A DNA stretch of 21,998 nt from a virus: the IMG/VR virus record IMGVR_UViG_3300032249_000501, positions 1 through 21,998 of that record; one strand, written 5' to 3'. A program made the translations under genes and the position numbers. The notes below the pieces were generated by a model that ran no database searches, was not told the DNA's origin, and was given only the letters and a program-made list of their open reading frames with translations. Every line of letters starts with the position of its first letter. Positions within the stretch are counted from its first letter, which is position 1. Below, in pieces: positions 833 through 12,845 of this stretch.

Positions 833-914
833 CGTAAACCCTTATCCAATAAGGACTTAGGACAAATCCGGCGGGCCGCATTTTTCGTAACTCCTTATCT
901 ACCATAGACTTACG
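833..914 (+). repeat. Four-arm intergenic element, copy 1
   Basis: Order of parts: arm 1 (GTAAACCCTTAT, 834-845), arm 2 (ATAAGGACTTAG, 849-860), GC core (GCGGGCCG, 871-878), arm 3 (CGTAACTCCTTAT, 886-898), arm 4 (ACTTACG, 908-914). Arms 2 and 3 are near-perfect inverted repeats around the core. This copy is the farthest from a following promoter (about 127 bp to a weak -35 at 1026). Confidence 0.85.
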
Positions 915-921
915 ACGATTT

Positions 922-962
922 GCAAAATGCAATGCAAAATGCTACACATTGCAGCAAAATGC
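922..962 (+). repeat. Three direct repeats of GCAAAATGC
   Basis: GCAAAATGC occurs at 922-930, 934-942 and 954-962, with start-to-start distances of 12 and 20 bases, close to one and two helical turns. The repeats lie between element copy 1 and the gene at 1076. An operator or iteron-like protein site is possible; nothing else supports a replication origin. Confidence 0.6.
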
Positions 963-1025
963 AACACTGCCAATCTGGCATCGTCATTTCTGATCTAGAA
1001 AACAAGCCAAAAAATATTTCTCGGT

Positions 1026-1053
1026 TTGGCACGGAAGGTGCATTATATATAGG
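1026..1053 (+). promoter_or_regulatory. Weak candidate promoter for the gene at 1076
   Basis: TTGGCA (1026-1031), 16 bases, then TATAGG (1048-1053). It is the only reasonable sigma-70 match between element copy 1 and the ATG at 1076. The -10 is poor. Confidence 0.3.
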
Positions 1054-1075
1054 TATAAGAAAGAGAGAGTTAGAT

Positions 1076-1276
1076 ATGAGAAAGTCAGTTTCAGTTCAGA
1101 ACTTCACCAAGTCCCTTCCCCCGATTTTCACGCATGACCATATGGTCTACATGAATAATGGCAAGGTTTACCGTGTTTACCGTCAAAGTTCAGACTACGG
1201 TGTGCATGAGTATATGCGTTCTCAGGGTTTCGATCCTAAGAATATCGTAAGAATCGATCTGGTTCCTGCAAAATAG
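1076..1276 (+). CDS. Hypothetical protein, 66 aa
   Basis: Not recognised. The C-terminal half, with a YMNNGKVYRVYR strand pattern and SQGFDPKNIVRIDLV, looks like a small mixed alpha/beta domain. The ATG at 1076 is preferred over an in-frame ATG at 920, because a purine-rich ribosome site (AAGAAAGAGAGAG) precedes it and the 920-1075 stretch is made of direct repeats and low-complexity codons. Probably a single-gene unit. Confidence 0.7.
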   Translation: MRKSVSVQNFTKSLPPIFTHDHMVYMNNGKVYRVYRQSSDYGVHEYMRSQGFDPKNIVRIDLVPAK

Positions 1277-1279
1277 GGG

Positions 1280-1307
1280 TTGACAACTAAAAACAAGCTG
1301 GTATAAT
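1280..1307 (+). promoter_or_regulatory. Sigma-70-type promoter
   Basis: TTGACA (1280-1285), 16-base spacer, TATAAT (1302-1307), 26 bases before the ATG at 1333. One of the few strong promoters here without the CCGAT spacer motif. Confidence 0.85.
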
Positions 1308-1332
1308 ACAAACACAAGAAAGAGAGAATAGA

Positions 1333-1647
1333 ATGAAAACGAAGTTCCCCATCATCGAAAATGCCAAGCGTCAAGCCCGTATGTGTTTTCTTGGTATCGC
1401 CATCCCCACAGAAGTCAAGAATATCGACGGTGAGATGGTTCAAGTCGAAAAGGTAATCAAGTTCAATCGTACTGCCCTGAAAAACATGGGTAAGGTTAAG
1501 GCCGATAGTGTCGATCCGCGATTCGTTGGCGGTGAAGATAAGATGCGGTTCAAGGTTGGAAAGCCGGGAAGTGCTGAACGTGTTGAAGCACTTGTCGCAC
1601 AGTATGCTAGTCTTGCTGAAGATGAAATGTCACCCTTTGAGGATTGA
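1333..1647 (+). CDS. Hypothetical phage protein, 104 aa
   Basis: Soluble, mixed-charge protein with no recognised domain. The N-terminal part (to about residue 45) is Lys/Val-rich and strand-like; the C-terminus is acidic (AEDEMSPFED). It follows a consensus promoter and a GAAAGAGAGA ribosome site, so it is probably well expressed, and it heads a three-gene operon (1333, 1650, 1838). Function unknown. Confidence 0.8.
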   Translation: MKTKFPIIENAKRQARMCFLGIAIPTEVKNIDGEMVQVEKVIKFNRTALKNMGKVKADSVDPRFVGGEDKMRFKVGKPGSAERVEALVAQYASLAEDEMSPFED

Positions 1648-1649
1648 AA

Positions 1650-1835
1650 ATGGATACGTTAACATTCAAAGAAGTTGTAAAGATGGCTCGTGAAAATGAT
1701 TTGCATATTCTTATTAGGTCTGAAGGATATGCGTTGTGTGATGATCAATTGGAAACTTTGGTAATCACTAGTAGTCTGCGTAAGCTGGTATGGTATATTA
1801 ACAACTGCGAAATTCTTGGAATCATAAAGGTATAA
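1650..1835 (+). CDS. Hypothetical protein, 61 aa
   Basis: Begins MDTLTFKEVVKMARENDLHI. Not recognised. The ATG at 1650 has GAGG (1639-1642) at the right distance; a TTG at 1644 is in frame but too close to it. The start lies two bases after the stop of the preceding gene, so translation is likely coupled. Confidence 0.7.
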   Translation: MDTLTFKEVVKMARENDLHILIRSEGYALCDDQLETLVITSSLRKLVWYINNCEILGIIKV

Positions 1836-1837
1836 AC

Positions 1838-2065
1838 ATGAGCAAGTATAACGGCTATGCAAATTATCAAACGTGGAATGTATGCTTGTGGATTGGTAAC
1901 GATGAGGGGCTGTACAATTTCGCAAAGGGTTGTGATGATTATGCCGAATTTGTGGAAGCTATGAGGGAAGATGGATGTCTTGAGACTCTAGACGGTGTGG
2001 CGTGGAATGATAGTGGAATCAACCTTGACGAAATGAAAGAATTCTGGGACGAAAGTTTTGCTTGA
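1838..2065 (+). CDS. Small conserved phage protein with NYQTWNV motif
   Basis: 75 aa. The N-terminus MSKYNGYANYQTWNVCLWIG, followed by ND..LY, matches a small family I recognise as recurring in phages and some bacteria (NYQTWNVALWI-type); I know of no proven function. Residues 30-75 are acidic and helical. The stop codon TGA (2063-2065) is embedded in the -35 box of the next promoter. Confidence 0.8.
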   Translation: MSKYNGYANYQTWNVCLWIGNDEGLYNFAKGCDDYAEFVEAMREDGCLETLDGVAWNDSGINLDEMKEFWDESFA

Positions 2066-2090
2066 CAAACGCCGATAATTGTAGTATACT
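2062..2090 (+). promoter_or_regulatory. Promoter with GCCGAT spacer motif
   Basis: TTGACA (2062-2067), 17-base spacer with GCCGAT at 2071-2076, TATACT (2085-2090). The -35 overlaps the end of the preceding gene (GCT TGA). Confidence 0.85.
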
Positions 2091-2115
2091 GGAAGAAACC
2101 CACTAAGGAGAAAGT

Positions 2116-2517
2116 ATGAACGATCTGTTTGTTATGCTGTGCTGTTTGATGATTGCTTGCGGCCTTATTATTGCTGCTATTCTATATGCTACATATGGGG
2201 GTGTGCATGGTTCACTTGTTGATTCTAATATTGGTAGTGTTTACAATTTTCGATACCTCCAACCATTGACCGGAACATATGAGCGTTATCTTGCCAAGGT
2301 AATTGCTAAACGTGATATGAAAGATTATATTCATAGGCTGAATGTAACGAGTGACTATCGCATTTTCGATAAAGAATTCAAGCGTACTAACACTCTTGTA
2401 ACGTGCGAACTGTCAAACGGTGATATTCGCAACTTCTATGCAGAACGTGTGCAGGATTGCTATCTCTCGTTTTTCGGTAAACTTTTGTACAGTACGGGCA
2501 TGGCCTGTATTTTCTGA
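2116..2517 (+). CDS. Membrane-anchored hypothetical protein, 133 aa
   Basis: Residues 4-26 form a strong transmembrane segment (LFVMLCCLMIACGLIIAAIL). The remaining ~105 residues are a soluble, probably cytoplasmic or periplasmic, domain with short charged strands (YLAKVIAKRD, CELSNGDIRNFYAERV). AAGGAG lies at the right distance. It is the sole gene of its unit, between a strong promoter and element copy 2. Function unknown. Confidence 0.8.
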   Translation: MNDLFVMLCCLMIACGLIIAAILYATYGGVHGSLVDSNIGSVYNFRYLQPLTGTYERYLAKVIAKRDMKDYIHRLNVTSDYRIFDKEFKRTNTLVTCELSNGDIRNFYAERVQDCYLSFFGKLLYSTGMACIF

Positions 2518-2533
2518 AAATTCTGGACTCGCT

Positions 2534-2614
2534 CTAAGTCTTTACCACATAAGGACTTAGGGTTAGTTCGGCGGGCCGCGTTTTTCGTAAGTCCTTATCT
2601 GACAACACTTTACG
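2534..2614 (+). repeat. Four-arm intergenic element, copy 2
   Basis: Arm 1 TAAGTCTTTA (2535-2544), arm 2 ATAAGGACTTAG (2549-2560), GC core GCGGGCCG (2571-2578), arm 3 CGTAAGTCCTTAT (2586-2598), arm 4 ACTTTACG (2607-2614). Arm 3 ends 67 bases before the -35 at 2666. Confidence 0.9.
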
Positions 2615-2665
2615 ACGCAGACGCGAACCTTACAGCATTGTAAGGAAAGAAATTCCAGATAGTGC

Positions 2666-2693
2666 TTGACAATGCCGATATACTCTGTATAAT
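2666..2693 (+). promoter_or_regulatory. Promoter with GCCGAT spacer motif
   Basis: TTGACA (2666-2671), GCCGAT at 2674-2679, TATAAT (2688-2693), spacer 16. One of three nearly identical promoters (with 5883 and 11121). Confidence 0.9.
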
Positions 2694-2716
2694 GAAAGCA
2701 CAAGGAGAAAGAAACC

Positions 2717-2893
2717 ATGCGATACGATTTTGATGATGTCAACGCGATTCTCTCCGCTCTTGCCGATGCGGACATTGTTGAGCCGGTTGTCGAGCCGATT
2801 GACGATCCTAGCGTGGAAATGAATTTTTGGGATTGGGCCGATGTTGTTGGTCTTGTTGACGAGTTTGTTCCAGAGGAGTATACTGATGCTTAG
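2717..2893 (+). CDS. Acidic hypothetical protein, 58 aa
   Basis: Begins MRYDFDDVNAILSALADADI; strongly acidic throughout, with an FWDW patch at 37-40. AAGGAGAAAG precedes the ATG. It is the first of three consecutive genes (2717, 2886, 2962) whose soluble members are very acidic. Such proteins in phages can mimic DNA or bind host enzymes, but nothing here proves that. Confidence 0.7.
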   Translation: MRYDFDDVNAILSALADADIVEPVVEPIDDPSVEMNFWDWADVVGLVDEFVPEEYTDA

Positions 2894-2957
2894 TGCTGTC
2901 GCGTTTCTTGTTTCTTACGTTGGACTTTTTTACATCGCTGCTACCATCAAGGACTAA
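2886..2957 (+). CDS. Membrane micropeptide, 23 aa
   Basis: A 23-residue hydrophobic peptide (MLSAVAFLVSYVGLFYIAAT then IKD) that is a single membrane span. GAGGAG at 2873-2878 sits 7 bases before its ATG, inside the end of the previous gene, which it overlaps by 8 bases; the overlap implies coupled translation. The next gene starts four bases after its stop. The strong ribosome site makes it more credible than its length suggests. Confidence 0.6.
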   Translation: MLSAVAFLVSYVGLFYIAATIKD

Positions 2958-2961
2958 TAAC

Positions 2962-3207
2962 ATGAGTCACCCCGATCCGTCTTACGATTTCGACAACTCT
3001 TTTGAGGATGATAACATGGAATACCACGACGATACCACCGATGCGAACTACGATGATTACAACGACTTCAATGACGGTTACGATGATAGCATGGATGGGG
3101 ATTTTGATTCAGCCATGCGTGATGCGGGATTTGGAACAGATGAAAACTATGGGCATTACGGGGATGATATCGACGCATTCCACGATTACTATGGGGAGGA
3201 TTACTAA
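2962..3207 (+). CDS. Extremely acidic low-complexity protein, 81 aa
   Basis: Nearly half the residues are Asp or Glu, with many Tyr, Asn and Gly (for example NYDDYNDFNDGYDD), and almost no Lys or Arg. Probably intrinsically disordered; a nucleic-acid mimic or binder of a basic host protein is a fair guess but unproven. AAGGA at 2949-2953 supports the ATG at 2962; an in-frame extension to 2893 would overlap the micropeptide gene entirely. Confidence 0.75.
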   Translation: MSHPDPSYDFDNSFEDDNMEYHDDTTDANYDDYNDFNDGYDDSMDGDFDSAMRDAGFGTDENYGHYGDDIDAFHDYYGEDY

Positions 3208-3560
3208 TGAGTAATACTATTGAAGTAAAGCGTCGAAAGGTTTTTATAGTTGGCGATATGACTTTTAGCAGTATGTTAAAAGCCCGCGATTATCTAAAAG
3301 AATATCCATATGAATACAAAGGAAAGAGATATAGTTCTAAGACCCAAATTAAATATCTTATAGACAAAGAAAAAAGATATGAACTAGATGAAGTATTTAA
3401 AAAGTACGCGGCAGTAGACATTGAATTTTTTAATAAGCGTTATGTTGATAATTATTATGGAAATAAATTGATAGAAGTGCTTTCTAATGCAGATTTTCAT
3501 AAAGATAGCTTGCGTATTGTTGAAAAGTATAATAAACTTATAGGACTATATGATGTATAA
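3207..3560 (+). CDS. Hypothetical protein, 117 aa, basic
   Basis: A Lys/Tyr-rich protein (MSNTIEVKRRKVFIVG, then EYKGKRYSSKTQIKYLIDK) with no clear domain. Its ATG shares a base with the previous stop. Codon use is AT-rich (AGA, TTA, ATA), unlike the genes before it, suggesting a different origin. The segment around residues 38-52 reads like a short helix-turn-helix-type stretch, but the match is too weak to call. Confidence 0.7.
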   Translation: MSNTIEVKRRKVFIVGDMTFSSMLKARDYLKEYPYEYKGKRYSSKTQIKYLIDKEKRYELDEVFKKYAAVDIEFFNKRYVDNYYGNKLIEVLSNADFHKDSLRIVEKYNKLIGLYDV

Positions 3561-3771
3561 AAAAACTGTACAATTCGATAACAACTACTCCGCGAGTGTT
3601 GTATGTAATGATATGAGTTATGGTGGGGATCGCGGATTGTTCGAAGTTGCAATCTTATATAACAATGAAATTACATATGATACTCCAATTACTAAGGGTG
3701 TGGTGGGATTTCTTGATTTTCAAGGTGTAGCAGACACATTCAAACAAATTGAAAAACTTCCGCGACGTTAG
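3550..3771 (+). CDS. Hypothetical protein, 73 aa
   Basis: Beta-rich protein (YKKTVQFDNNYSASVVCND, GLFEVAILYNNEI) ending in a helix (FQGVADTFKQIEKL). Overlaps the preceding gene by 11 bases; ATGs at 3550 and 3553 are both possible. Resembles small phage proteins annotated only as hypothetical. Last gene of its operon, directly before element copy 3. Confidence 0.7.
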   Translation: MMYKKTVQFDNNYSASVVCNDMSYGGDRGLFEVAILYNNEITYDTPITKGVVGFLDFQGVADTFKQIEKLPRR

Positions 3772-3773
3772 AC

Positions 3774-3853
3774 GCAAACCCTTGTGGCATAAGGACTTAC
3801 GACGCGGGGGGCGGGCAAAATTTGTCATAAGTCTTTACGTACCAACAACTTAG
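3774..3853 (+). repeat. Four-arm intergenic element, copy 3
   Basis: Arm 1 AAACCCTT (3776-3783), arm 2 ATAAGGACTTACG (3789-3801), GC core GGCGGGC (3810-3816), arm 3 CATAAGTCTTTAC (3826-3838), arm 4 ACTTAG (3848-3853). Arm 3 ends 41 bases before the -35 at 3880. Confidence 0.88.
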
Positions 3854-3879
3854 AGCAAGTTTTCTTCTAAAGAAAATGG

Positions 3880-3908
3880 TTGACACTGGTCGATATGTAT
3901 GGTAGGAT
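3880..3908 (+). promoter_or_regulatory. Promoter with CGAT spacer motif
   Basis: TTGACA (3880-3885), CGAT at 3891-3894, TAGGAT (3903-3908), spacer 17. Drives 3929 and probably 4124. Confidence 0.75.
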
Positions 3909-3928
3909 GGTAGTCTGGAGGGCAAACT

Positions 3929-4072
3929 ATGAAAGATAGTGAATATATACAACCTGAGAGTGAAACGATAGATTGGCTAGTTTACGCAGAATACATAGCT
4001 TACCAACTTGGGCAAATTAGGCAAGATGTGAAAGATGTGATGGATGAACAGAATGGGAAAGTATCACCCTAA
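3929..4072 (+). CDS. Hypothetical protein, 47 aa
   Basis: Begins MKDSEYIQPESETIDWL; acidic and probably helical in its second half (GQIRQDVKDVMDEQ). The GGAGGG ribosome site (3917-3922) is strong and follows the promoter directly. Function unknown. Confidence 0.65.
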   Translation: MKDSEYIQPESETIDWLVYAEYIAYQLGQIRQDVKDVMDEQNGKVSP

Positions 4073-4123
4073 GTAAACGGGTCAGAAGCTTTTGCGAGTA
4101 GTCAGCTAAAAGGAGAACTTTTT

Positions 4124-4285
4124 ATGAAGAATGTTCATGTTTATGACATTAGGACTGAGGATGGTGAGAGTCTGCAAGACTTGATTATTCCTATGGATAT
4201 GGAATACGAGTGGATGGATGTTTTTGAGAAAGTTCAAGGGGCATATCTTGACAACGTAGACAGTTATAGCTATACTGAGGTCTGA
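4124..4285 (+). CDS. Acidic hypothetical protein, 53 aa
   Basis: Begins MKNVHVYDIRTEDGESLQDL; acidic, Tyr-rich, no motif recognised. AAAAGGAG is well placed before the ATG at 4124. It lies 51 bases after the 47-aa gene and precedes the tRNA array. Confidence 0.65.
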   Translation: MKNVHVYDIRTEDGESLQDLIIPMDMEYEWMDVFEKVQGAYLDNVDSYSYTEV

Positions 4286-4366
4286 GAAGACTGCGGGCCG
4301 CTGACAGAATGATATCAAAGAAGTCGCGGTTAAATGCAAAGCCGAGTATGGCATAACCCGCAAGCT
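4286..4366 (+). other. Short spacer with GC core remnant and hairpin before tRNA-Lys
   Basis: GCGGGCCG (4293-4300) repeats the core of the four-arm elements, but the arms are missing. An imperfect stem (GCGGTTA at 4325-4331 with TAACCCGC at 4354-4361) follows just before the tRNA. It could be a decayed element or a processing hairpin. Confidence 0.35.
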
Positions 4367-4439
4367 GGGTCATTAGCTCAATTGGCAGAGCAGCAAACTT
4401 TTAATTTGTAGGTTGAAGGTTCGACTCCTTCATGACCCA
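4367..4439 (+). tRNA. tRNA-Lys (UUU)
   Basis: Acceptor GGGTCAT/ATGACCC, D-arm GCTC/GAGC, anticodon stem GCAAA/TTTGT around loop CTTTTAA (anticodon TTT), T-arm GAAGG TTCGACT CCTTC, discriminator A. No encoded CCA. It would read AAA and AAG, which are frequent in the AT-rich genes. Confidence 0.95.
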
Positions 4440-4468
4440 TTGACATTAAGGATAATAGTGAGTATAAT
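4440..4468 (+). promoter_or_regulatory. Strong promoter directly after tRNA-Lys
   Basis: TTGACA (4440-4445), 17-base spacer, TATAAT (4463-4468). It starts one base after the tRNA and should drive 4513, 4754 and the following tRNA array. Confidence 0.85.
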
Positions 4469-4512
4469 ATGAGGATGCGGCGTATTCACAAATATGAGTT
4501 AAGGAGCAGGCT

Positions 4513-4767
4513 ATGTCATGGCGAGATGAATTCTTCTTTTATAAGGGCTACAATTGTAGAATCGAACATGATTATGAGGAAGACAATGTTAAGGCATGGC
4601 ATATTGTCATTGATCAATTTGGTAAAGAAATTACTGCGGATATAACTCCATATGATAGTTCTCCAGAAGTTTTACGTTTGTGGATTGACGCTGGTATGCC
4701 TAGTCGTACTGGTTCTGGACCACTTCGTCGTGAAGATTTGGAGAAGATGATCTATGAACGAGCCTAA
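4513..4767 (+). CDS. Hypothetical phage protein, 84 aa
   Basis: Begins MSWRDEFFFYKGYNCRIEHD. The pattern YKGYNCRIE, then AWHIVID and LWIDAGMP resembles small phage proteins with a beta-hairpin N-terminus and a short C-terminal helix; I do not know a function. AAGGAG at 4500-4505 supports the start. Lies between the first tRNA and the other five. Confidence 0.75.
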   Translation: MSWRDEFFFYKGYNCRIEHDYEEDNVKAWHIVIDQFGKEITADITPYDSSPEVLRLWIDAGMPSRTGSGPLRREDLEKMIYERA

Positions 4768-4909
4768 CGTCTACCATATCTATAACGAATATGTATTGGG
4801 CGAAGTAGATTACTACGAGGACTTGGAAGATAATCCAAGAGAGGAACTCATGGAGTATGATGACTCTGATGAGTGGTACAACATTGATGAATCGGAGGCT
4901 GACGTTTGA
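4754..4909 (+). CDS. Acidic hypothetical protein, 51 aa
   Basis: Begins MNEPNVYHIYNEYVLGEVDY; the rest is mostly Asp/Glu/Tyr (DLEDNPREELMEYDDSDEWY). Overlaps the preceding gene by 14 bases, with GGAG in its coding end as ribosome site. It ends 11 bases before tRNA-Thr. It belongs with the other small acidic proteins of this region. Confidence 0.6.
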   Translation: MNEPNVYHIYNEYVLGEVDYYEDLEDNPREELMEYDDSDEWYNIDESEADV

Positions 4910-4920
4910 GTTGCGATGGT

Positions 4921-4992
4921 GTCGATGTAGCACAACGGTAGTGCAACTGATTTGTAATCAGTAGGTTGAAGGTTCAAATCCTTTCGTCGGCT
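4921..4992 (+). tRNA. tRNA-Thr (UGU)
   Basis: Acceptor GTCGATG/CGTCGGC (two G-U pairs), D-arm GCAC/GTGC, anticodon stem ACTGA/TCAGT around TTTGTAA (anticodon TGT at 4953-4955), T-arm GAAGG TTCAAAT CCTTT, discriminator T. Confidence 0.93.
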
Positions 4993-4993
4993 C

Positions 4994-5064
4994 TCCGAGA
5001 TGGTGAAACGGTATCACAGTTGACTTTGGATCAACTTTTCTACGTTCGAATCGTAGTCTCGGAA
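4994..5064 (+). tRNA. tRNA-Gln (UUG)
   Basis: Acceptor TCCGAGA/TCTCGGA, D-arm GTGA/TCAC, anticodon stem GTTGA/TCAAC around CTTTGGA (anticodon TTG), T-arm CTACG TTCGAAT CGTAG, discriminator A. Only one base separates it from tRNA-Thr, so the two are processed from one transcript. Confidence 0.94.
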
Positions 5065-5070
5065 CTATGA

Positions 5071-5142: not shown

Positions 5143-5146
5143 TTTT

Positions 5147-5218: not shown

Positions 5219-5220
5219 TT

Positions 5221-5339: not shown

Positions 5340-5357
5340 TTGGTGTAGGAGACAAGA

Positions 5358-5777
5358 ATGAAAGAAAAAATATTAGAACTAAGATCATTAGGCTATTCGT
5401 ACAAACAAATCCAAGATAAGCTTGGTTGTTCTAAAGGAACTATAGCTTATCATGTAGGAATGGGTCAAAAAGATAAAACGTCCAAAAGAAGAAAAGATGG
5501 TAGGAATAAAATTAGAAAGTTGATACAGGAGTCGAAACATAATAAGAAATGTGTTGACTGCGGGGAATCATATCCGTACTGGATAATGGAATTTGATCAT
5601 CTATCTAACAAAAAATTCAACATATCAACATTTCAGTCTTATACTAACTCAATAGAAGTAGTTAAAGAAGAAATAGACAAATGTGATATCGTATGTGCCA
5701 ATTGCCACAAGAATAGGACGTTTCAAAGGCTTATCAAGACATGCGATGATGTTTTGATTGATAGCGACTTGGCATAA
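5358..5777 (+). CDS. HNH homing-type endonuclease with N-terminal HTH
   Basis: 139 aa. Residues 1-33 form a helix-turn-helix (LGYSYKQIQDKLGCSKGTIA) for DNA binding. After a basic linker (about 36-64) comes an HNH nuclease: zinc-binding C65/C68, the D80-H81 active-site pair, then C113/C116 with H117, N119 and R120. Free-standing HNH genes of this type are mobile and cleave DNA of related phages. It sits beside the tRNA array, is AT-rich compared with its neighbours and has its own weak promoter, all consistent with an insertion. Its stop lies inside element copy 4. Confidence 0.9.
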   Translation: MKEKILELRSLGYSYKQIQDKLGCSKGTIAYHVGMGQKDKTSKRRKDGRNKIRKLIQESKHNKKCVDCGESYPYWIMEFDHLSNKKFNISTFQSYTNSIEVVKEEIDKCDIVCANCHKNRTFQRLIKTCDDVLIDSDLA

Positions 5778-5852
5778 GTCTATATCTGACAAGTGTTTAG
5801 GACACGCGGGGAGGGCCGGGTTCGCCGTAAGTCCTTATGTACCAACAACTTA
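5773..5852 (+). repeat. Four-arm intergenic element, copy 4
   Basis: Arm 1 CATAAGTC (5773-5780) overlaps the end of the HNH gene; arm 2 is degenerate (AAGTGTTTAG, 5791-5800); core GGGCCG (5813-5818); arm 3 CGTAAGTCCTTAT (5826-5838); arm 4 ACTTAT (5848-5853 region). Arm 3 ends 44 bases before the -35 at 5883. Confidence 0.85.
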
Positions 5853-5882
5853 TATCAAATAATATTTTTCTCAAGATTTTTC

Positions 5883-5910
5883 TTGACAATGCCGATCTAT
5901 ATGGTATGAT
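5883..5910 (+). promoter_or_regulatory. Promoter with GCCGAT spacer motif
   Basis: TTGACA (5883-5888), GCCGAT (5891-5896), TATGAT (5905-5910), spacer 16. It drives 5934 and probably 6650 and 7151. Confidence 0.88.
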
Positions 5911-5933: not shown

Positions 5934-6638
5934 ATGAAAGTTGCAAACGGTAACGACAAGTTGGGTAAGGGTTGCTTGGTTGTTTCGCGTCCGGTTGGGG
6001 ATACTTGCCCCGATACTTGTGCTTTCCTGCACAATGGATGTTATGCAGAGCAAACCGAGAAGATGTATCCGGGTGTTCGTCCTGCTGGTATGCAGAATGT
6101 TATCACGGAAAAGCATCGCATTCGTGCTATGATTCTTGATGCTATTAGTCAGGGTAAGAGCATCCGTTGGCATGAACGTGGCGATTGGTTTCTCAATGGA
6201 GAGCTAGACTTGGATTATGTTGCCAACGTGACGGATGCTTGTGAGAGTATTCTTGCCGATGGTACTAAGCTGCCCGATATGTGGTTTTATACTCATATTT
6301 ACGATTCTCGACTTGTGAGTCTGGAAAAGTATATGAATGTATATGCCAGCATTCATAACGATCAGGATATGGGTGAAGCGTTGGCACAAGGTTTCAAGCT
6401 GTTCGCATGGTGCGACAGCGACCAGAAGATTGCACCGAAGCGTCCTCGTAACAAGGCAAAGGCCGACGCATGGCGAAAAGCATTGCCGAAGCTGGTGATT
6501 CTCAATGGCACGAAGTTTGTAACCTGTCCAGAAATCAGGCGTGGTCGTGGCGTTGTCACTTGCACACCGACTAAGGGTAGTGTAACATGTGATCTCTGCG
6601 TTCGCGGTTTGGCTAACGTTTTGTTTCCCTCTCACTAA
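5934..6638 (+). CDS. Cys-rich gp88-like phage protein
   Basis: 234 aa. It resembles the phage gp88-type family: an N-terminal Cys cluster (C14, C25, C29, C36 in CPDTCAFLHNGCYAE), a central RWHERGDWFLNGE (78-90), HIYDSR (121-126), and a C-terminal cluster C198, C210, C219, C222 ending in a PxH tail (FPSH). The spacing suggests bound metal or an iron-sulphur centre. Function in phages is not established. AAGGGAGAAAAG precedes the start. Codons are T/C-ending and CGT-rich, suggesting good expression. Confidence 0.8.
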   Translation: MKVANGNDKLGKGCLVVSRPVGDTCPDTCAFLHNGCYAEQTEKMYPGVRPAGMQNVITEKHRIRAMILDAISQGKSIRWHERGDWFLNGELDLDYVANVTDACESILADGTKLPDMWFYTHIYDSRLVSLEKYMNVYASIHNDQDMGEALAQGFKLFAWCDSDQKIAPKRPRNKAKADAWRKALPKLVILNGTKFVTCPEIRRGRGVVTCTPTKGSVTCDLCVRGLANVLFPSH

Positions 6639-7381: not shown

Positions 7382-7384
7382 TGA

Positions 7385-7464
7385 CGTAAACCCTTGCTGC
7401 CATTAGACTTATGGCTAGCGGGGCCGGGAGCATTTGACGTAAGTCCTTATCCAACATAGACTTA
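7385..7464 (+). repeat. Four-arm intergenic element, copy 5
   Basis: Arm 1 CGTAAACCCTT (7385-7395), degenerate arm 2 (ATTAGACTTATGG, 7402-7414), core GGGGCCGGG (7420-7428), arm 3 CGTAAGTCCTTAT (7438-7450), arm 4 ACTTAG (7460-7465 region). No clear promoter follows this copy. Confidence 0.82.
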
Positions 7465-7512
7465 GAAACAATCCGAAAAAAGTCTAAAGGTCTATAGGGA
7501 GAAGTGTCGATA

Positions 7513-7919: not shown

Positions 7920-7933
7920 GAGGAGTTGGCGAG

Positions 7934-8661: not shown

Positions 8662-8863
8662 GCAGTTGAAGGGTTATCCATCCGATATGAGGGTATTGAC
8701 TCTTGGGTATGAGGATGGGTTTAACGATATTAATCTTAGCACGGATGATATTGTATTCAATTTCAACAATAAAGATACTTGGTATTATGGGCCGCATGAG
8801 TGTGTTAGGTTTGCTGAGGGTGACAAGGGAGAAAAGTGTGTGATTGTTGGGAGGGGAAAGTAA
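8639..8863 (+). CDS. Small conserved protein of MTVSELIEQLK type
   Basis: 74 aa. The opening MTVSELIEQLKGYPSDMRVL, with a following GYEDGFNDI, is typical of a widespread small family of phages and bacteria (helix, then P-D-x-V strand, then EGGxDDI-like loop). Function unproven. GGATCG before the ATG serves as ribosome site. The next gene starts at the A of its stop codon. Confidence 0.8.
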   Translation: MTVSELIEQLKGYPSDMRVLTLGYEDGFNDINLSTDDIVFNFNNKDTWYYGPHECVRFAEGDKGEKCVIVGRGK

Positions 8864-9117
8864 TGGAATGGCTTAGTTTTTTTGGTCATCGTCGCCCTAT
8901 TAATGGTCAAAAGATTATCTATTATGGTGAGCCTATTGGTGTGTGGCGTGGAACATATAGGATAAATTATGAGGATGCTTTTTGTATCCATAATATTGAC
9001 TGTGGAGAAGCTCCCGGCAATGTAGACTATATGGATGCTCCGTGGTGGATGCCAGATGAGGGACAACCAAAACCACCACCACCAAAAGAACATTACCCAA
9101 AGGATTATCCGTCATAA
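8863..9117 (+). CDS. DUF551-like small protein, 84 aa
   Basis: The layout RRPINGQKIIYYGEP...GVWRGTYR, then a W-W-M-P segment (APWWMPDEG) and a proline-rich end (PKPPPPKEHYP) resembles DUF551 proteins, which have a WI...LPxxG...V start and end in thWMPLPxPP. The family is common in phages, function unknown. The ATG at 8863 overlaps the previous stop and has GAGGGG upstream, preferred over the in-frame ATG at 8836. Confidence 0.7.
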   Translation: MEWLSFFGHRRPINGQKIIYYGEPIGVWRGTYRINYEDAFCIHNIDCGEAPGNVDYMDAPWWMPDEGQPKPPPPKEHYPKDYPS

Positions 9118-9254
9118 TGGACAAAGGTCTAAAAATACTTAGCGATATTTGCCCGTGTGGGGAGTGTGATACTCTGGTATGGAGATATGATAATAATGGG
9201 GTTATCTGGAAGTTTTGCCAGCAGTGTCATTGGTGGTTTATTGGTAACTCATGA
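9117..9254 (+). CDS. Zinc-ribbon protein, 45 aa
   Basis: CPCGEC (C12, C14, C17) and CQQC (C34, C37) form a compact zinc ribbon with an aromatic tail (HWWFIGNS). The ATG shares a base with the previous stop, continuing the 8452-8639-8863-9117 chain of coupled genes. Function unknown. Confidence 0.7.
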   Translation: MDKGLKILSDICPCGECDTLVWRYDNNGVIWKFCQQCHWWFIGNS

Positions 9255-9256
9255 CA

Positions 9257-9323
9257 GGATAAGGACTTAGGGAAAGCCGGGCGGGCCGGACTCATCGTAA
9301 GTCCTTATGTAGCAACGACTTAT
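9257..9323 (+). repeat. Four-arm intergenic element, copy 6
   Basis: Lacks arm 1. Arm 2 ATAAGGACTTAG (9259-9270), core GCGGGCCG (9281-9288), arm 3 CGTAAGTCCTTAT (9296-9308), arm 4 ACTTAT (9318-9323). Arm 3 ends 46 bases before the -35 at 9355. It starts three bases after the upstream stop codon. Confidence 0.9.
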
Positions 9324-9354
9324 GTCACACCAAATTTTTTCTCAAGAAATCCTC

Positions 9355-9382
9355 TTGACAAGTCGATATAGTATGATAGAAT
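9355..9382 (+). promoter_or_regulatory. Promoter with CGAT spacer motif
   Basis: TTGACA (9355-9360), TCGATATA (9363-9370), TAGAAT (9377-9382), spacer 16. The transcript has a leader of about 40 bases before the ATG at 9428. Confidence 0.82.
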
Positions 9383-9427
9383 GATTGGAGTAACGGTTGA
9401 TGATTCCACTAACAAACGAGGTTCTAT

Positions 9428-9676
9428 ATGAAGAAGTTTGCGTTTACGGTTGATGTTGTCGGTGTTGATGCTGATGTCGAGGAGATTGTTGGTACGATTC
9501 GTAAGGCCGTACAGTCTCACGGGACGTACAATTGTGTCGATCATGTTGATACTACGGAGTTTACCGATCAGGGTCTGAAGGTTTGGACTAAGCGTAAGAT
9601 TGGCGTGAGTCTTGCCCAGCCCAAGAAGAAGAAGGCTCCCAAGGCTGATGTCGTTGCCGAGACGGCACAGGGTTGA
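9428..9676 (+). CDS. Hypothetical protein, 82 aa, Lys-rich tail
   Basis: Begins MKKFAFTVDVVGVDADVEEI with an alternating strand-helix pattern that suggests a small ferredoxin-like alpha/beta fold (residues 1-58), followed by a basic, disordered tail (QPKKKKAPKADVV). The tail could bind nucleic acid. T/C-ending codons suggest high expression. Function unknown. Confidence 0.75.
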   Translation: MKKFAFTVDVVGVDADVEEIVGTIRKAVQSHGTYNCVDHVDTTEFTDQGLKVWTKRKIGVSLAQPKKKKAPKADVVAETAQG

Positions 9677-9701
9677 TTTTCTAAAGGTTATATGCTAGAA
9701 T
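9673..9701 (+). promoter_or_regulatory. Promoter overlapping the end of the previous gene
   Basis: TTGATT (9673-9678), 17-base spacer, TAGAAT (9696-9701). The -35 contains the stop TGA of the upstream gene. CGAT lies just after the -10 (9704-9707). Confidence 0.65.
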
Positions 9702-9704
9702 GTC

Positions 9705-9736
9705 GATACTGGGTGAAGCGGTAGTAACCCAGTATC
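9705..9736 (+). promoter_or_regulatory. Perfect 10-bp hairpin at the 5' end of a transcript
   Basis: GATACTGGGT (9705-9714) and ACCCAGTATC (9727-9736) with a 12-base loop, starting about at the expected transcription start. It may protect the RNA 5' end or be an operator. Confidence 0.75.
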
Positions 9737-9765
9737 CATTCTGGCGATCTTGTAAGGAAAGAAAA

Positions 9766-9903
9766 ATGAAGATTCTTGGGTTGAATGACGATACTAAGTA
9801 TGGTAAGATTGTTAGTATCGCGGCTGATGGTGTGACGTTTGTTTCTAATGGTAAGAGGGTTGTGTATACCCTTGCTGATGTTGAGAAGATGTTTTCTATC
9901 TAA
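9766..9903 (+). CDS. Small SH3-like hypothetical protein, 45 aa
   Basis: Begins MKILGLNDDTKYGKIVSIAA; short beta-strands with DGVTFVSNGKRVVYTLADV look like a tiny beta-barrel (KOW/SH3-like), an impression only. The ATG at 9766 has AAGGAAAG upstream; an in-frame ATG at 9700 overlaps the -10 box and would read through the 5' hairpin, so it is rejected. Confidence 0.7.
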   Translation: MKILGLNDDTKYGKIVSIAADGVTFVSNGKRVVYTLADVEKMFSI

Positions 9904-9917
9904 GGGAGAATTTGAAT

Positions 9918-10127
9918 ATGAATAATTTTGCAAGTCTGCGTAAGGATCGCCATATCCGTTGCAAGTATCCTCTGCATGGAACTAAGAACGTGCTTAAGTT
10001 CCACACTGGACGTATCCTGCGCGTTGGTAACGGTCCTAACGGCAAGTATGCCGTGGTCCGTGCGATGGATAACACGGTGCGAACGCTGCTGTGCGATAAG
10101 ATGCTGGAAACGCACTGCTACCGTTGA
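9918..10127 (+). CDS. Hypothetical protein, 69 aa
   Basis: Begins MNNFASLRKDRHIRC; basic, with strand-like segments (TGRILRVGNGPNGKYAVVRA, then TLLCDKMLET). It resembles the preceding 45-aa protein in its strand-turn-strand and DKM/EKM ending, so both may be small beta-barrels. GGGAG (9904-9908) supports ATG 9918 over TTG 9912. Function unknown. Confidence 0.72.
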   Translation: MNNFASLRKDRHIRCKYPLHGTKNVLKFHTGRILRVGNGPNGKYAVVRAMDNTVRTLLCDKMLETHCYR

Positions 10128-10133
10128 TCTCCC

Positions 10134-10162
10134 TTGACGATGCGGGTGGTACATGCTATAAT
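10134..10162 (+). promoter_or_regulatory. tRNA promoter with 9-bp palindrome around the -10
   Basis: TTGACG (10134-10139), 17-base spacer, TATAAT (10157-10162). A perfect inverted repeat, GGGTGGTAC (10144-10152) and GTACCACCC (10168-10176), encloses the -10, so a bound protein would block this promoter. Confidence 0.8.
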
Positions 10163-10182
10163 AGTGTGTACCACCCGTTATC

Positions 10183-10262
10183 GCTCCCGTGCCGGTGGTT
10201 CCCGGCAACGACTCTTATAAGGTCGTCCGAAAGGGGACTTGGTTCGATTCCAAGCGGGAGTA
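10183..10262 (+). tRNA. Unusual long-variable-arm tRNA, anticodon UAU
   Basis: Acceptor GCTCCCG/CGGGAGT (G1-U72 at the end), D-stem GCCGG/CCGGC with a 6-base loop, anticodon stem CGACT/GGTCG around CTTATAA (anticodon TAT at 10216-10218), variable arm TCC-GAAA-GGGGA, T-arm CTTGG TTCGATT CCAAG, discriminator A. UAU would be isoleucine (AUA), but isoleucine tRNAs have a short variable loop, so identity is uncertain. Confidence 0.82.
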
Positions 10263-10517
10263 TTATTTTTGGACAATAAAATAGGATCGTGTGCTATTGC
10301 CCTTATTCTTAGCTTTGTATGTTGGTAATTGACAGTCGCAATTTGGACATACAATCCTAAGATTATCTAGCTTATTATTATTAGATTTACCATCAATATG
10401 ATCTACAATTAGAGTAATAGGTTTTCCGTTCCAGTTGTCTCCAGACTGTCCACAAATCATACAGTTATTTCCATTTGACACAGGAGGCTCTGTATGGTAG
10501 ACTAGATTTTTCATCAT
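10263..10517 (-). CDS. HNH endonuclease, minus strand
   Basis: 84 aa. Zinc ligands C19/C22 and C57/C60 flank the active-site pair D39-H40 (VDHIDGKSNNNKLDNL, N52), ending CPNCDCQLPTYKAKN: a compact HNH nuclease of the free-standing phage type. An in-frame stop immediately precedes the start, so there is no N-terminal DNA-binding domain. The only clear minus-strand gene in the window; its stop abuts the 3' end of the tRNA at 10262, and both facts suggest insertion as a mobile homing gene. Ribosome site weak. Confidence 0.88.
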   Translation of the reverse strand: MMKNLVYHTEPPVSNGNNCMICGQSGDNWNGKPITLIVDHIDGKSNNNKLDNLRIVCPNCDCQLPTYKAKNKGNSTRSYFIVQK

Positions 10518-10534
10518 TCACATAGGGAGATAAA

Positions 10535-10591
10535 TTGATAGAACTTATGATTATGATATTCATATGGAGCTTGCTATATAAACAGGAATAA
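10535..10591 (+). CDS. Possible 18-aa membrane micropeptide
   Basis: TTG at 10535 follows GGGAGA (10525-10530) and encodes a hydrophobic peptide (IELMIMIFIWSLLYKQE after the start). Non-ATG start and tiny length, so doubtful. Confidence 0.25.
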   Translation: MIELMIMIFIWSLLYKQE

Positions 10592-10593
10592 AT

Positions 10594-10602
10594 TGGTATA
10601 AT
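10594..10602 (+). promoter_or_regulatory. Extended -10 promoter candidate
   Basis: TTGGTATAAT has a TGN extension before TATAAT (10597-10602); the -35 is poor (TTGCTA at 10571, spacing 20). It would drive 10682 and 10863. Confidence 0.5.
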
Positions 10603-10681
10603 AACTTCATATAAAGTAACCAATATTCCCCCAAACATTCACGGCAGACCATACAAACATTATAAGAATAAGTAACATATT

Positions 10682-10870
10682 ATGGGTATAACATTTCCAC
10701 TACAGATTGTTACAGTTAAGATTGACTTGTGCATTAGTTCAGAGCAGTGTGATATTAAATCTAAGGAAAGTATTGCAGAGTTCTTGAACAAGAAGTTATA
10801 TGAAGATCCAGAGTTCTTTGGCGATTTCGGATCAGAGAACATTCTTGAAGTAAGGGCAGTAGATGATTGA
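10682..10870 (+). CDS. Hypothetical protein, 62 aa
   Basis: Begins MGITFPLQIVTVKIDLCISS, then SKESIAEFLNKKLYEDPEFF. A strand followed by a helix; AT-rich codons. It resembles small phage hypothetical proteins. Ribosome site weak; leader of about 75 bases after the extended -10 promoter. Confidence 0.62.
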   Translation: MGITFPLQIVTVKIDLCISSEQCDIKSKESIAEFLNKKLYEDPEFFGDFGSENILEVRAVDD

Positions 10871-11003
10871 ACTAACAGCTAATGAAATGTGGAAGATCCT
10901 AGATGCTATAACAGCATATAAGAAAGATTATGCAGTAAGTGTAGCAGTCCAGAAAACTATATCTGGTATAGAAAAAAAGTTGAAATCTGAACTGAATAAA
11001 TAG
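10863..11003 (+). CDS. Hypothetical helical protein, 46 aa
   Basis: Begins MIELTANEMWKILDAITAYK and continues as a Lys-rich helix. It overlaps the end of the previous gene by 8 bases. Function unknown; supported by the overlap, the AAGGGCAG site and the position directly before element copy 7. Confidence 0.55.
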   Translation: MIELTANEMWKILDAITAYKKDYAVSVAVQKTISGIEKKLKSELNK

Positions 11004-11007
11004 CAGT

Positions 11008-11090
11008 CGCCGCAAGTCCTTTGCTCACAAGGGTTTAGGGCCGACGCGGCCCGCCCCGCGAATCCTAAGTCCTTATCTACCAACGACTTA
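11008..11090 (+). repeat. Four-arm intergenic element, copy 7
   Basis: Arm 1 CGCAAGTCCTTT (11011-11022), arm 2 CACAAGGGTTTAGG (11026-11039), core GCGGCCCGCC (11046-11055, reversed relative to other copies), arm 3 CTAAGTCCTTAT (11065-11076), arm 4 ACTTAG (11086-11091 region). Arm 3 ends 44 bases before the -35 at 11121. Confidence 0.87.
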
Positions 11091-11120
11091 GAGCAAAAAG
11101 AAATTTCTAATGCTATCCCC

Positions 11121-11148
11121 TTGACAATACCGATATACATGGTATGAT
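11121..11148 (+). promoter_or_regulatory. Promoter with CCGAT spacer motif
   Basis: TTGACA (11121-11126), CCGAT (11130-11134), TATGAT (11143-11148), spacer 16; nearly identical to the promoters at 2666 and 5883. Confidence 0.88.
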
Positions 11149-11167
11149 GATTGAAAAGGAGAGAGTG

Positions 11168-11410
11168 ATGGTCGCGGTAAACACAAAAGAGTTTGATACG
11201 ATTCTGGACGCTGAGTGCGTTCATTGTTCGGGCAAGCACGTTTTGTTCGTGAAGATCAGAGATTATCTCAAGTGGAAATATAAAGAGGGTTTTATTCAAG
11301 ACCTTTTGCCGTACCTTACCAATGGTGAGCGTGAATTGCTCATATCTGGAACGTGCAGCGATTGTTTCGACAGAATGTTTCCGCCTCTTGACATTAGCAG
11401 CGACGAGTGA
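11168..11410 (+). CDS. Conserved phage zinc-binding protein, 80 aa
   Basis: CVHC (C17, C20) near the N-terminus and CSDC (C63, C66) near the end bracket DYLKWKYKEGFIQDLLPYL and ERELLISGTC. This DYxxW...IQxxLPxLxxxERELLISGxCxxCF pattern is one I recognise from phages of soil and plant-associated bacteria; no function is known. ATG 11168 is chosen because GGAGAGAG lies just upstream and the -10 box lies at 11143. The end of the gene carries the promoter for 11455. Confidence 0.8.
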   Translation: MVAVNTKEFDTILDAECVHCSGKHVLFVKIRDYLKWKYKEGFIQDLLPYLTNGERELLISGTCSDCFDRMFPPLDISSDE

Positions 11411-11416
11411 TATACT
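11388..11416 (+). promoter_or_regulatory. Promoter inside the end of the previous gene
   Basis: TTGACA (11388-11393), 17-base spacer, TATACT (11411-11416), with the -35 inside coding sequence. Drives the DUF932 gene. Confidence 0.8.
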
Positions 11417-11454
11417 AGGTTTATTGAGAGTTCCCACTAACTAGGAGTTTTTAG

Positions 11455-12654
11455 ATGAGCGATTACAATAAGTTGACGATTCAGTCCGACGTTTCCCAAG
11501 GTTCTTTTGTTCGTACCCTCCAAGGTAATACCGGCACGGGTTTTGAGAAGGGTACGCATGTTCATAAGGATTGGTGGGCTAAGACTAAGACCTACGAACA
11601 GGTCATGCAGGATGCTCACGTTGCGGTGGAGAACCGCGAGGATATTCTGGTCGAGACTAAGAATATTTCCTGCGTTGGAGAGAATAGTGATTTCTATTTC
11701 AAGCTGGCTGATGGTCGGAAGTTTCGTCCTACGGATCATGCTATCGAACAGTTTAGCGTTCGCACTGGCGTGACTTCTTCTTCGTTCCTGCGTGAGATGC
11801 GTAATATCGAAGAGTTCGATTCTCACGATGCTAACACGATGGCGATTGTTGGCAACAATGCGTTGCGACGTATTGAATCCGACAAGAAGTTCCGACTCCG
11901 TACCTATACGGATGGAACGTGCCGTGCGTTTGTCACTGAGCAGTATGCCCCTGTCGATAACCGCTGGTATCTTGAGACTCTCGCAGAGTTTGTTCCCGGT
12001 GGACGTTTCAGCCACTGGCGTGGCGATGAGGATACTATCTATGGTAATATCCTTATCCCGGATACTATCATGGATTATGGTTCCGATGATAGTGATTACG
12101 GTGGTATGATTAGTGTGGGTAACTGTGAGATCGGCACTCGCCGCATTTCGCAGACGCCTAGCCTGTTTCGTGCCATCTGCATGAACGGTTGCATCTGGGG
12201 TCAAACTGCTGGTGAGAAGATTCGTCGCGTTCACCGTGGTAATATTGTTCTGGATACTCTCAAGAGCGAAATCGCTCTGAATATCCAGCAGCAGATTCCC
12301 TTGCTTGCTCCCGGTATCAAGCAGTTCCTCGCTACCCGTGCTATGGAAACTGGCAAGGCTAGCGTGAAGGGTATCATCGCGTCCTTCTCGTCGGATTATA
12401 AGTTGACTAAGAAGGAAGCCTCTGAGTTTCTTTCGCAGTATGGTGAATATGAGTCTACCCATCGTAACCTGTTCGGAATTATCAACGGACTGACCCGTGC
12501 GGGACAAAAGTTTGATAATAAGACTTGGGTGAAGTTCGACGAGGTCGCTGGTAGTATGCTGACGATTGGTGCTGATCGCTGGTCTACCATCCTGCGTCGT
12601 GCGGATACCTTTACCGATAAGGACTACGAGAAGGTTTTCGCTCTGACGGCTTAA
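11455..12654 (+). CDS. DUF932-family phage/plasmid protein
   Basis: 399 aa, the longest gene here. It has the DUF932 pattern: a central alpha/beta region (YTDGTCRAFVTEQYAPVDN, 151-169), then ISVGNCEIGTRRI (219-231) and LFRAICMNGCIWG (237-249), matching the family's nSE-G and R-x-C-x-NG blocks. DUF932 proteins are frequent on phages and plasmids; their biochemical role is unsettled. Codons are strongly biased to CGT, GGT, GCT and AAG, unlike most neighbours, which suggests high expression. It is alone in its unit, followed by a strong hairpin. Confidence 0.88.
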   Translation: MSDYNKLTIQSDVSQGSFVRTLQGNTGTGFEKGTHVHKDWWAKTKTYEQVMQDAHVAVENREDILVETKNISCVGENSDFYFKLADGRKFRPTDHAIEQFSVRTGVTSSSFLREMRNIEEFDSHDANTMAIVGNNALRRIESDKKFRLRTYTDGTCRAFVTEQYAPVDNRWYLETLAEFVPGGRFSHWRGDEDTIYGNILIPDTIMDYGSDDSDYGGMISVGNCEIGTRRISQTPSLFRAICMNGCIWGQTAGEKIRRVHRGNIVLDTLKSEIALNIQQQIPLLAPGIKQFLATRAMETGKASVKGIIASFSSDYKLTKKEASEFLSQYGEYESTHRNLFGIINGLTRAGQKFDNKTWVKFDEVAGSMLTIGADRWSTILRRADTFTDKDYEKVFALTA

Positions 12655-12658
12655 TAGT

Positions 12659-12715
12659 GGGAGGGATGGATCGGCGGGCGGTTATCAATAAATTTTCCCG
12701 CCGGTCCTACCTTCC
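12659..12715 (+). terminator. Strong hairpin after the DUF932 gene
   Basis: GGGAGG (12659-12664) with CCTTCC (12710-12715), and GGATCGGCGGG (12668-12678) with CCCGCCGGTCC (12697-12707), around an 18-base AT-rich loop. No U-tract follows, so it may be an mRNA 3'-end stabiliser or Rho-related terminator rather than an intrinsic one. Confidence 0.55.
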
Positions 12716-12739
12716 AACAATCTTGGGAAGCTGGCTCTC

Positions 12740-12845
12740 GCCGTAAGTCCGTTGCCCATAAGGGTTTACGGCTGGCGGGGCGGGCCGCAATTTCCATAAG
12801 TCTTTTATTTCCAATATGTTACATCAAGTGAACGTAAGTCCTTAT
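12740..12845 (+). repeat. Four-arm intergenic element, copy 8 (extended)
   Basis: Arm 1 GCCGTAAGTCC (12740-12750), arm 2 ATAAGGGTTTACG (12758-12770), core GCGGGCCG (12780-12787), arm 3 CATAAGTCTTTTAT (12795-12808), and an extra full arm CGTAAGTCCTTAT at 12833-12845. Arm 3 is about 48 bases before the -35 at 12857; the extra arm is only 11 bases away. Confidence 0.85.

Follow-up and report, generated by a model that had tools for sequence, protein, structure and literature searches.

A paired-dyad intergenic element that looks like a shared protein-binding site in an uncultured group of large bacteriophages

The window analysed here, a stretch of 21,998 nucleotides of viral DNA (IMG/VR record IMGVR_UViG_3300032249_000501, positions 1 to 21,998), carries eight copies of an 84-nt element, all on the + strand and alignable without gaps. 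Each copy comprises two 25-bp inverted repeats of the form TAA(GT/AC)CCTT-N7-AAGGACTTA, which flank a GC core; arms 1 and 2 make up one repeat and arms 3 and 4 the other, with the same geometry (9-N7-9), their centres are separated by 53 bp, and the GC core is the site of a single overall dyad for the whole element. The copies and the sites beside them are as follows.

833..916, + strand: element copy 1 (A1-A2 dyad, GC core, A3-A4 dyad)
922..962, + strand: three GCAAAATGC sites (922, 934, 954), downstream of copy 1
1026..1042, + strand: TTGGCACGGAAGGTGCA, a sigma54-like box, 109 bp past copy 1
2533..2616, + strand: element copy 2
2666..2693, + strand: sigma70-type promoter TTGACA-N16-TATAAT, spacer containing CCGATA, 49 bp past copy 2
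3773..3856, + strand: element copy 3
3880..3908, + strand: promoter TTGACA-N17-TAGGAT, spacer containing TCGATA, 23 bp past copy 3
5773..5856, + strand: element copy 4
5883..5910, + strand: promoter TTGACA-N16-TATGAT, spacer containing CCGATC, 26 bp past copy 4
7385..7468, + strand: element copy 5 (without a close TTGACA promoter)
9243..9326, + strand: element copy 6
9355..9382, + strand: promoter TTGACA-N16-TAGAAT, spacer containing TCGATA, 28 bp past copy 6
11011..11094, + strand: element copy 7
11121..11148, + strand: promoter TTGACA-N16-TATGAT, spacer containing CCGATA, 26 bp past copy 7
12742..12825, + strand: element copy 8
12833..12861, + strand: a third dyad, made of a further half-site CGTAAGTCCTTAT and a degraded partner, which overlaps the -35 of the promoter that follows
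12857..12885, + strand: promoter TTGCGT-N17-TACAAT, spacer containing TCGATA, 31 bp past copy 8

A first-pass annotation made from the letters alone had noticed eight sites with a common order of arms, and this description held: the order is as described, the start positions given are correct to 0-14 nt (the copy placed at 9257 in fact begins at 9243), and the arm-3-to-arm-4 portion is indeed the most conserved. Scored with a matrix built from them, the window copies reach 86-104 bits; the runner-up on the window's + strand stands at -14. Every window copy stands in the order ORF stop codon, element, next ORF start, with only two overlaps of upstream ORF ends (~5 and ~12 nt); we claim intergenic placement on the window ORFs only, because gene calling in the relatives over-called ORFs and placed about half of the elements inside genes. 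The gap between the end of arm 3 and the -35 hexamer measures 41 nt in copy 3, 44 in copy 4, 46 in copy 6, 44 in copy 7, 49 in copy 8 and 67 in copy 2, compared with the 41-48 and 67 first reported, and no sigma70-type promoter lies within ~110 bp of copies 1 and 5. The promoter at 5883..5910 is upstream of a GP88-family gene (5934-6638), and that at 11121..11148 is upstream of an ORF (11144-11410) and a DUF932 gene (11455-12654).

Further copies, the search for which the annotation had proposed, were found in dozens of relatives. The element pattern matched in 47 of the 48 source records searched and its reversed-pattern control in none, and the mapped genomes hold 8-18 copies each, confined to one block. 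A refined matrix applied to 1.12 Mb of related loci gave 235 sites above 30 bits, against 0 in shuffled sequence; the distinct copies number 230 and are spread over 51 loci. Of the loci picked up by the initial pattern scan, over half lack the full element and resemble chance matches to the 25-nt pattern. A terminase scan confirmed at least 580 relatives. The element was absent from cultured phages and plasmids by blastn, which short diverged sites can escape, and no description of it was found in the literature. Among the bacterial genome contigs scanned, the full element occurred in two MAG contigs only, at least one of which is a phage by gene content; a chromosomal repeat was rejected because only these two contigs match and one of them, L128, shares cluster genes with the phages (up to 80%). 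The carriers are an uncultured group of large bacteriophages, in which the element looks like an undescribed shared protein-binding site. It probably forms the control system of this group, which is abundant and lacks close relatives in culture.

Placement relative to promoters, which had likewise been suggested for checking, proved strongly non-random and helically phased. The distances from element to TTGACA are quantised by the helical turn, at about 25, 35, 46, 57 and 68 bp (23-26, 32-38, 44-51, 57-63 and 66-69), and this phasing persists after ortholog de-duplication, which removes inherited spacings (permutation p<5e-5); orthologous spacings differ chiefly by 0-2, 8-11, 21-23, 32-33, 42-44 or 52-55 bp. 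Within the element, the dyad-to-dyad spacing is 53 in 227 pairs, with a minor class of 42, one turn shorter. In 104 of 120 cases it is the A3-A4 side that faces the promoter, element-linked promoters are mostly of the TTGACA type (TTGACA/TATAAT), and A-tracts occupy the stretch from dyad 2 to the -35 hexamer. A sigma70-type promoter was present within 150 bp of 102 of the 163 copies; ~37% have no recognised one nearby, which may mean that the promoter pattern is too strict or that some of the copies work in another way. A few promoters, of the CTAAAG/TTCAAG spacer class, are in a different register.

Distances quantised in helical turns are characteristic of a regulator that contacts RNA polymerase from upstream, and we consider it probable that each copy is the double-stranded DNA target of a dimeric sequence-specific regulator acting at phased promoters. 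One dimer would occupy each 25-bp inverted repeat; the pair would share one face of the helix at a distance of 53 bp, with the GC-rich core in between. The centre of the promoter-proximal dyad would fall near -68, -79, -90, -100 or -111 relative to the start predicted from the promoter hexamers, most often at about -79. The bound protein would then face sigma70 RNA polymerase, and the intervening A-tracts resemble an UP element; this position together with the UP-like A-tracts makes the alpha C-terminal domain the likely contact, as in class I regulation, a contact of which the A-tracts between dyad 2 and the -35 are suggestive. Because the element is repeated before 8-18 operons, the small-gene block may constitute one regulon, presumably of early genes, which the array would switch on or off. 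The original proposal of a dispersed operator or activator array is thus upheld as to promoter linkage, phasing and copies in relatives, and neither of the two outcomes that the annotation had named as refuting it was observed. We lean towards an activator, although the near-consensus promoters do not demand one; a repressor that contacts RNA polymerase is a serious, somewhat less likely candidate.

The dyads behave as modules. In one relative, G053, an element of the same layout but with another palindrome (B, CTGCCAAAATGGCAG) occupies the corresponding genomic position and precedes the same genes, and unrelated T4-like phages contain mixed A-B elements whose promoters lie 26-27 bp from the A dyad; both the A and the B palindromes recur across unrelated phages (a novel terminase lineage and T4-like phages). 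GSQG repeats in L284 proved to be coding and were discarded. The palindrome swap under conserved genes and the mixed elements open the question of how operator specificity changes across a whole array to direct study, and a plasmid reporter would suffice for testing the exact sequences and spacings, no cultured phage being needed.

Several other readings of the element have to be weighed. Inverted-repeat arms that directly follow stop codons, a GC core and, in some copies, a T-run might befit hairpins in the transcript at which inter-operon termination, attenuation or processing takes place. However, no compensatory covariation was seen across the arms; covariation is confined to neighbouring columns, the strongest couplings are between adjacent bases, and the partner columns of a dyad pair no more often than their base frequencies predict, which argues for protein-DNA readout and not for an RNA hairpin. 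Rfam matches were tRNA-related only, with the gathering score reached by tRNAs alone, and an RNA reading cannot account for the phasing to the promoter downstream; an RNA structure was rejected on covariation and Rfam, and we regard this reading as extremely improbable. A role in structure or replication (partition/centromere-like, packaging or origin iterons), or that of a mobile repeat, would suit the regular ~1-1.7 kb spacing and the single block per genome, but strict orientation, helical spacing to promoters and near-invariant 53-bp inter-dyad spacing make such roles very unlikely, and neither a mobility gene nor target duplication was seen. Repressor or immunity operators, stoperator-like or lambda-like, would shut the early block en bloc, with the palindrome classes as heteroimmune specificities. 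Wholly different palindromes stand at the same genes in close relatives, as in heteroimmune phages (PMC6550527), an off-switch is sensible at near-consensus promoters, and the extra dyad of copy 8 overlaps the -35. Nevertheless, the sites are found upstream of promoters, in a fixed rotational register, and not over them or in gene bodies, the mixed A-B elements are at odds with exclusive immunity groups, and the ten large contigs, which may be incomplete, contain no HTH_3 repressor and no integrase over the cut-off (one sub-cut-off match). We therefore consider such an immunity array unlikely, and the stoperator-like logic of the first-pass annotation is not retained.

The regulator in our preferred reading, a dimeric protein acting at phased promoters, was sought among the phage proteins. 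Pfam and PHROGs scans of the conserved proteins gave no convincing regulator, HTH_17 and RHH were absent from the large contigs tested, and a comparison of class A with class B gene content, followed by Pfam scans of the class-specific genes, yielded no regulator family. A conserved 231-aa protein is sigma70 region 2-like and was set aside as no convincing regulator; a 268-aa HTH/coiled-coil protein adjoining the terminase was not adopted owing to its diverged HTH and TerS-like position. Host-encoded transcription factors may instead bind the dyads, the phages hijacking a host regulon and each palindrome class reflecting the host factor used, which is compatible with our preferred reading as it concerns the origin of the protein. 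The recurrence of A and B in unrelated phages speaks for this idea, as does the lack of a shared candidate or a recognised regulator family in the contigs tested, but the restriction of full-element matches in bacterial genomes to the two MAG contigs does not, nor does the absence of the A dyad from 398 Pseudomonadota genomes, a set that possibly does not include the phage host; on balance we hold it to be a realistic possibility, short of probable. More tentatively still, environmental phages of unrelated lineages might share a cis-regulatory code of exchangeable palindromic modules (A, TAAGTCCTT-N7-AAGGACTTA; B, CTGCCAAAATGGCAG; and possibly C, CCCC-N-GGGG), paired across a GC core and phased to sigma70 promoters, which would place the small-gene block under possibly host regulators and read the host state through common operators.

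At class I activator sites of the CRP type, the allowed distances upstream of the -35 differ by whole helical turns. The same whole-turn spacing is found here, as positional and not functional evidence, but each site has two dyads and a GC core, with a modal centre predicted near -79. Sigma54 enhancers, the upstream sites of bEBPs, form upstream arrays at fixed distances, and sigma54-like boxes also lie near the arrays in these phages; the GCAAAATGC motif was seen again in relatives, upstream of TTGGCAC-N5-TTGC boxes. In contrast to sigma54 systems, in which an AAA+ activator works at a -24/-12 promoter, the main promoters here are TTGACA/TATAAT and no bEBP gene (sigma54 activator, PF00158) was found in 16 contigs, though a host activator could serve. 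Protein p4 of phage phi29 acts from a position near -80, with helical dependence and alpha-subunit contact. Its sites form two inverted repeats per regulatory region, each independent, at sigmaA/sigma70-type promoters, and the one protein can activate or repress (PMC3100819). The element resembles such a region in its two 25-bp dyads with a sigma70-type promoter downstream of dyad 2; however, phi29 has two regions with sites CTTTTT-N15-AAAATG (PMC3100819), a consensus different from that of the element, whereas here 8-18 copies of TAAGTCCTT-N7-AAGGACTTA have a GC core and a fixed distance of 53 bp between dyads. Most cluster A stoperators are not associated with promoters; they block elongation (PMC6550527), and they are asymmetric sites of a monomeric repressor (PMC6550527, PMC9283540). 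The likeness to them consists of many dispersed, oriented copies per genome and a specificity that varies between related phages, but the sites described here are intergenic, promoter-phased, symmetric double dyads of near-invariant geometry, built from paired inverted half-sites.

The eight intergenic sites of the first-pass annotation were recovered as eight ungapped copies of an 84-nt element, each placed after the stop codon of one ORF and ahead of the following ORF's start, and all within the first 13 kb of the window, an entire 21,998-base IMG/VR record with eight tRNA genes and many small ORFs. A matrix built from these copies scored them at 86-104 bits, and the highest-scoring remaining + strand site of the window reached -14.

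Element copies and example promoters in the window
833, 2533, 3773, 5773, 7385, 9243, 11011, 12742: starts of the 84-nt element copies
2666-2693, 5883-5910, 9355-9382, 11121-11148: examples of promoters with a CGATA-type spacer

The element consists of two inverted repeats of identical 9-N7-9 geometry, dyad 1 (columns 3-11, TAA GT/AC CCTT, and 19-27, AAGGACTTA) and dyad 2 (columns 56-64 and 72-80), with centres 53 bp apart and a GC core, GGSSSSCC, between them on the overall dyad axis. When single dyads were searched for with no spacing imposed, unique pairs fell at 53 bp (n=227), 52 (n=26), 42 (n=13), 51 (n=6) and 54 (n=6), the 42-bp class being one helical turn below 53, and the reversed-sequence control contained no pairs.

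Further copies are widespread in related phages, as the earlier reading of a dispersed array had led one to expect. A pattern scan of IMG/VR returned at least 119 stretches, with full elements in at least 51 loci, the window counted; the degenerate pattern was found in 47 of the 48 source records searched and the reversed pattern in none. Bacterial MAGs account for two of the 48, and one of these two MAG contigs, L128, is on its gene content a phage, because genes of the phages' own cluster have orthologues on it with identity up to 80%. Counting the window, 13 contigs were mapped in full or almost in full; they carry 8-18 copies apiece, 163 in total, forming one block of about 8-19 kb per contig at intervals of mostly 1-1.7 kb. 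By blastn the element matched no cultured phage or plasmid. The terminase common to these phages is at best 24% identical, over most of its length, to those of Bacillus Slash-like phages, the adjoining 336-aa protein has no match among cultured phages, and a terminase-profile scan gave at least 580 confirmed relatives. RIIA/RIIB-like proteins are encoded by these phages, and the longest contigs of the group exceed 200 kb.

Across the 13 contigs and 163 elements, downstream promoters are TTGACA-N16/17-TAGAAT-type, usually with a CGATA-containing spacer, and begin 15-17, 25-29, 35-38, 48-51, 59-60 or 68-70 bp past the element. Among CGATA-type promoters, 75 fall within 75 bp; their phase concentration at about 11 bp was 0.68, whereas 5000 uniform draws never exceeded 0.40. 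Because related genomes have spacings in common, we grouped promoters by orthologous downstream gene and let each distinct spacing contribute a single distance; the concentration for the remaining 59 distances was 0.49, reached by 0 of 20,000 draws. The regular placement ahead of promoters first noticed in the window is therefore non-random and helically phased. Spacing differences at orthologous loci are mainly 0-2, 8-11, 21-23, 32-33, 42-44 and 52-55 bp: indels between element and promoter are tolerated mainly in whole helical turns. In the window, five copies have 31, 34, 34, 36 and 39 bp between the centre of A4, the second arm of dyad 2, and the -35; in a sixth copy the distance is 57 bp, two turns more. 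The element is directional: of 120 cases, 104 have dyad 2 on the promoter side, and A-tracts lie between dyad 2 and the -35, at the UP-element position. Of 110 element-linked promoters in relatives, 85 have the conserved CGATA in their spacers, as against about 1 of 21 promoter matches arising by chance in reversed sequence; a minor class carries CTAAAG or TTCAAG instead.

A conserved RNA hairpin is made very unlikely by the absence of excess arm pairing and by coupling confined to adjacent bases: among 230 distinct copies, Watson-Crick pairing at dyad positions equals the product of column frequencies within a few percent, and the strongest couplings join neighbours, such as columns 6-7 (AC or GT) and 76-77. 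This pattern points to protein readout of independent half-sites rather than a conserved helix; Rfam gave nothing beyond tRNAs and sub-threshold matches. Most likely, dimers on the dyads contact RNA polymerase: one dimer would occupy each dyad, both on the same DNA face, and reach the polymerase from about -68 to -111, in the manner of class I regulators and phi29 p4. Sites with such phasing ahead of a promoter activate more often than they repress. We lean modestly towards activation by the element, and repression keeps a substantial share of the probability because the promoters are near-consensus. Phi29 p4 binds paired inverted repeats, activating one promoter and repressing others (PMC3100819). 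The element would work in the manner of a p4 region or a class I upstream site, repeated here as a regulon. The likeness to stoperators first proposed was not borne out, since the element differs from such arrays in symmetry and in promoter association, both of which were tested. The sequence, double-dyad-with-core layout, turn-quantised spacing and module exchange had no precedent in the literature searched; few subscription papers were covered, and the absence is weak evidence.

The palindromes themselves are exchangeable. In the related contig G053 (terminase about 79% identical), the block lacks any TAAGTCCTT element. Its array, at the matching genomic place and preceding the same conserved genes (DUF932 and GP88, 78% and 84% identical to those of the relative G022), is built of CTGCCATTTTGGCAG, a 14-bp GC core and CTGCCATTTTGGCAG; the two palindromes are spaced 29 bp, and the -35 lies mostly at 23-25 bp. 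In another relative, G063, the element's own dyad (A) is paired with the other palindrome (B) or with a CCCC-N-GGGG dyad. Three contigs, G466-G468, have regular arrays of mixed A-B elements, with a recognised promoter in 4 of 10 copies examined; in each of these it lies 26-27 bp away from the A dyad. G467 encodes a T4-type portal and T4-like terminase, proteins also present in G466 and G468; the main-lineage terminase was found in none of the three, which have almost no genes in common with that lineage. The swap in G053 and the mixed arrays together show that A and B can replace one another within a single layout. In both unrelated lineages the element block contains genes of the GP88 and DUF932 families, their proteins too diverged for blastp.

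GP88 / DUF932 family genes
5934-6638, 11455-12654: in the window
304-960, 1369-2343: in the locus L314

No regulator-typical families were found in the large contigs, and comparison of the palindrome classes for class-specific genes gave no good regulator candidate. A phage sigma70 region 2-like protein adjoins an HTH/coiled-coil protein (L155:6311-7006 and L155:5529-6335 in G022), a pair conserved in contigs reaching that region; both proteins are present in both classes and thus do not account for the swap. Host factors are a serious option as binders, because unrelated phages use the same palindromes; no A dyad occurs in 398 Pseudomonadota genomes, a set that may not include the phages' host.

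Several other features were observed. TTGGCAC-N5-TTGC boxes (202 in related loci) resemble sigma54 -24/-12 promoters; they may instead represent a further phased binding site, because many occur in reverse orientation ahead of TTGACA promoters, at quantised distances of 20-23, 31-33, 52-58 and 68-70. GCATTTTGC sites lie upstream of these boxes, typically at 83, 103 and 147 bp (upstream at 14 boxes, downstream at 1). A small protein in the element block, whose homologues occupy differing places in relatives, is possibly a free-standing homing endonuclease, and two 177-nt repeats look like paralogous genes.

Other features of the window and relatives
922, 934, 954: GCATTTTGC sites, also in the related loci L204, L223, L241, L249 and L269
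1026-1042: TTGGCAC-N5-TTGC box
5358-5777: small protein with N-terminal HTH and HNH-like cysteine motifs
12954-12986, 13266-13298, 13388-13420: 33-nt repeat ending CAGTCAGTGA, three copies past the last element, intergenic/leader
15445-16407: UvdE-type UV endonuclease gene, counterparts in relatives
17317-18066: trypsin-like protease gene, counterparts in relatives
19931-20107, 21820-21996: 177-nt repeats, 72% identical, the second truncated at the end of the window
L284:12276-14318: collagen-like GSQG coding repeats in a relative
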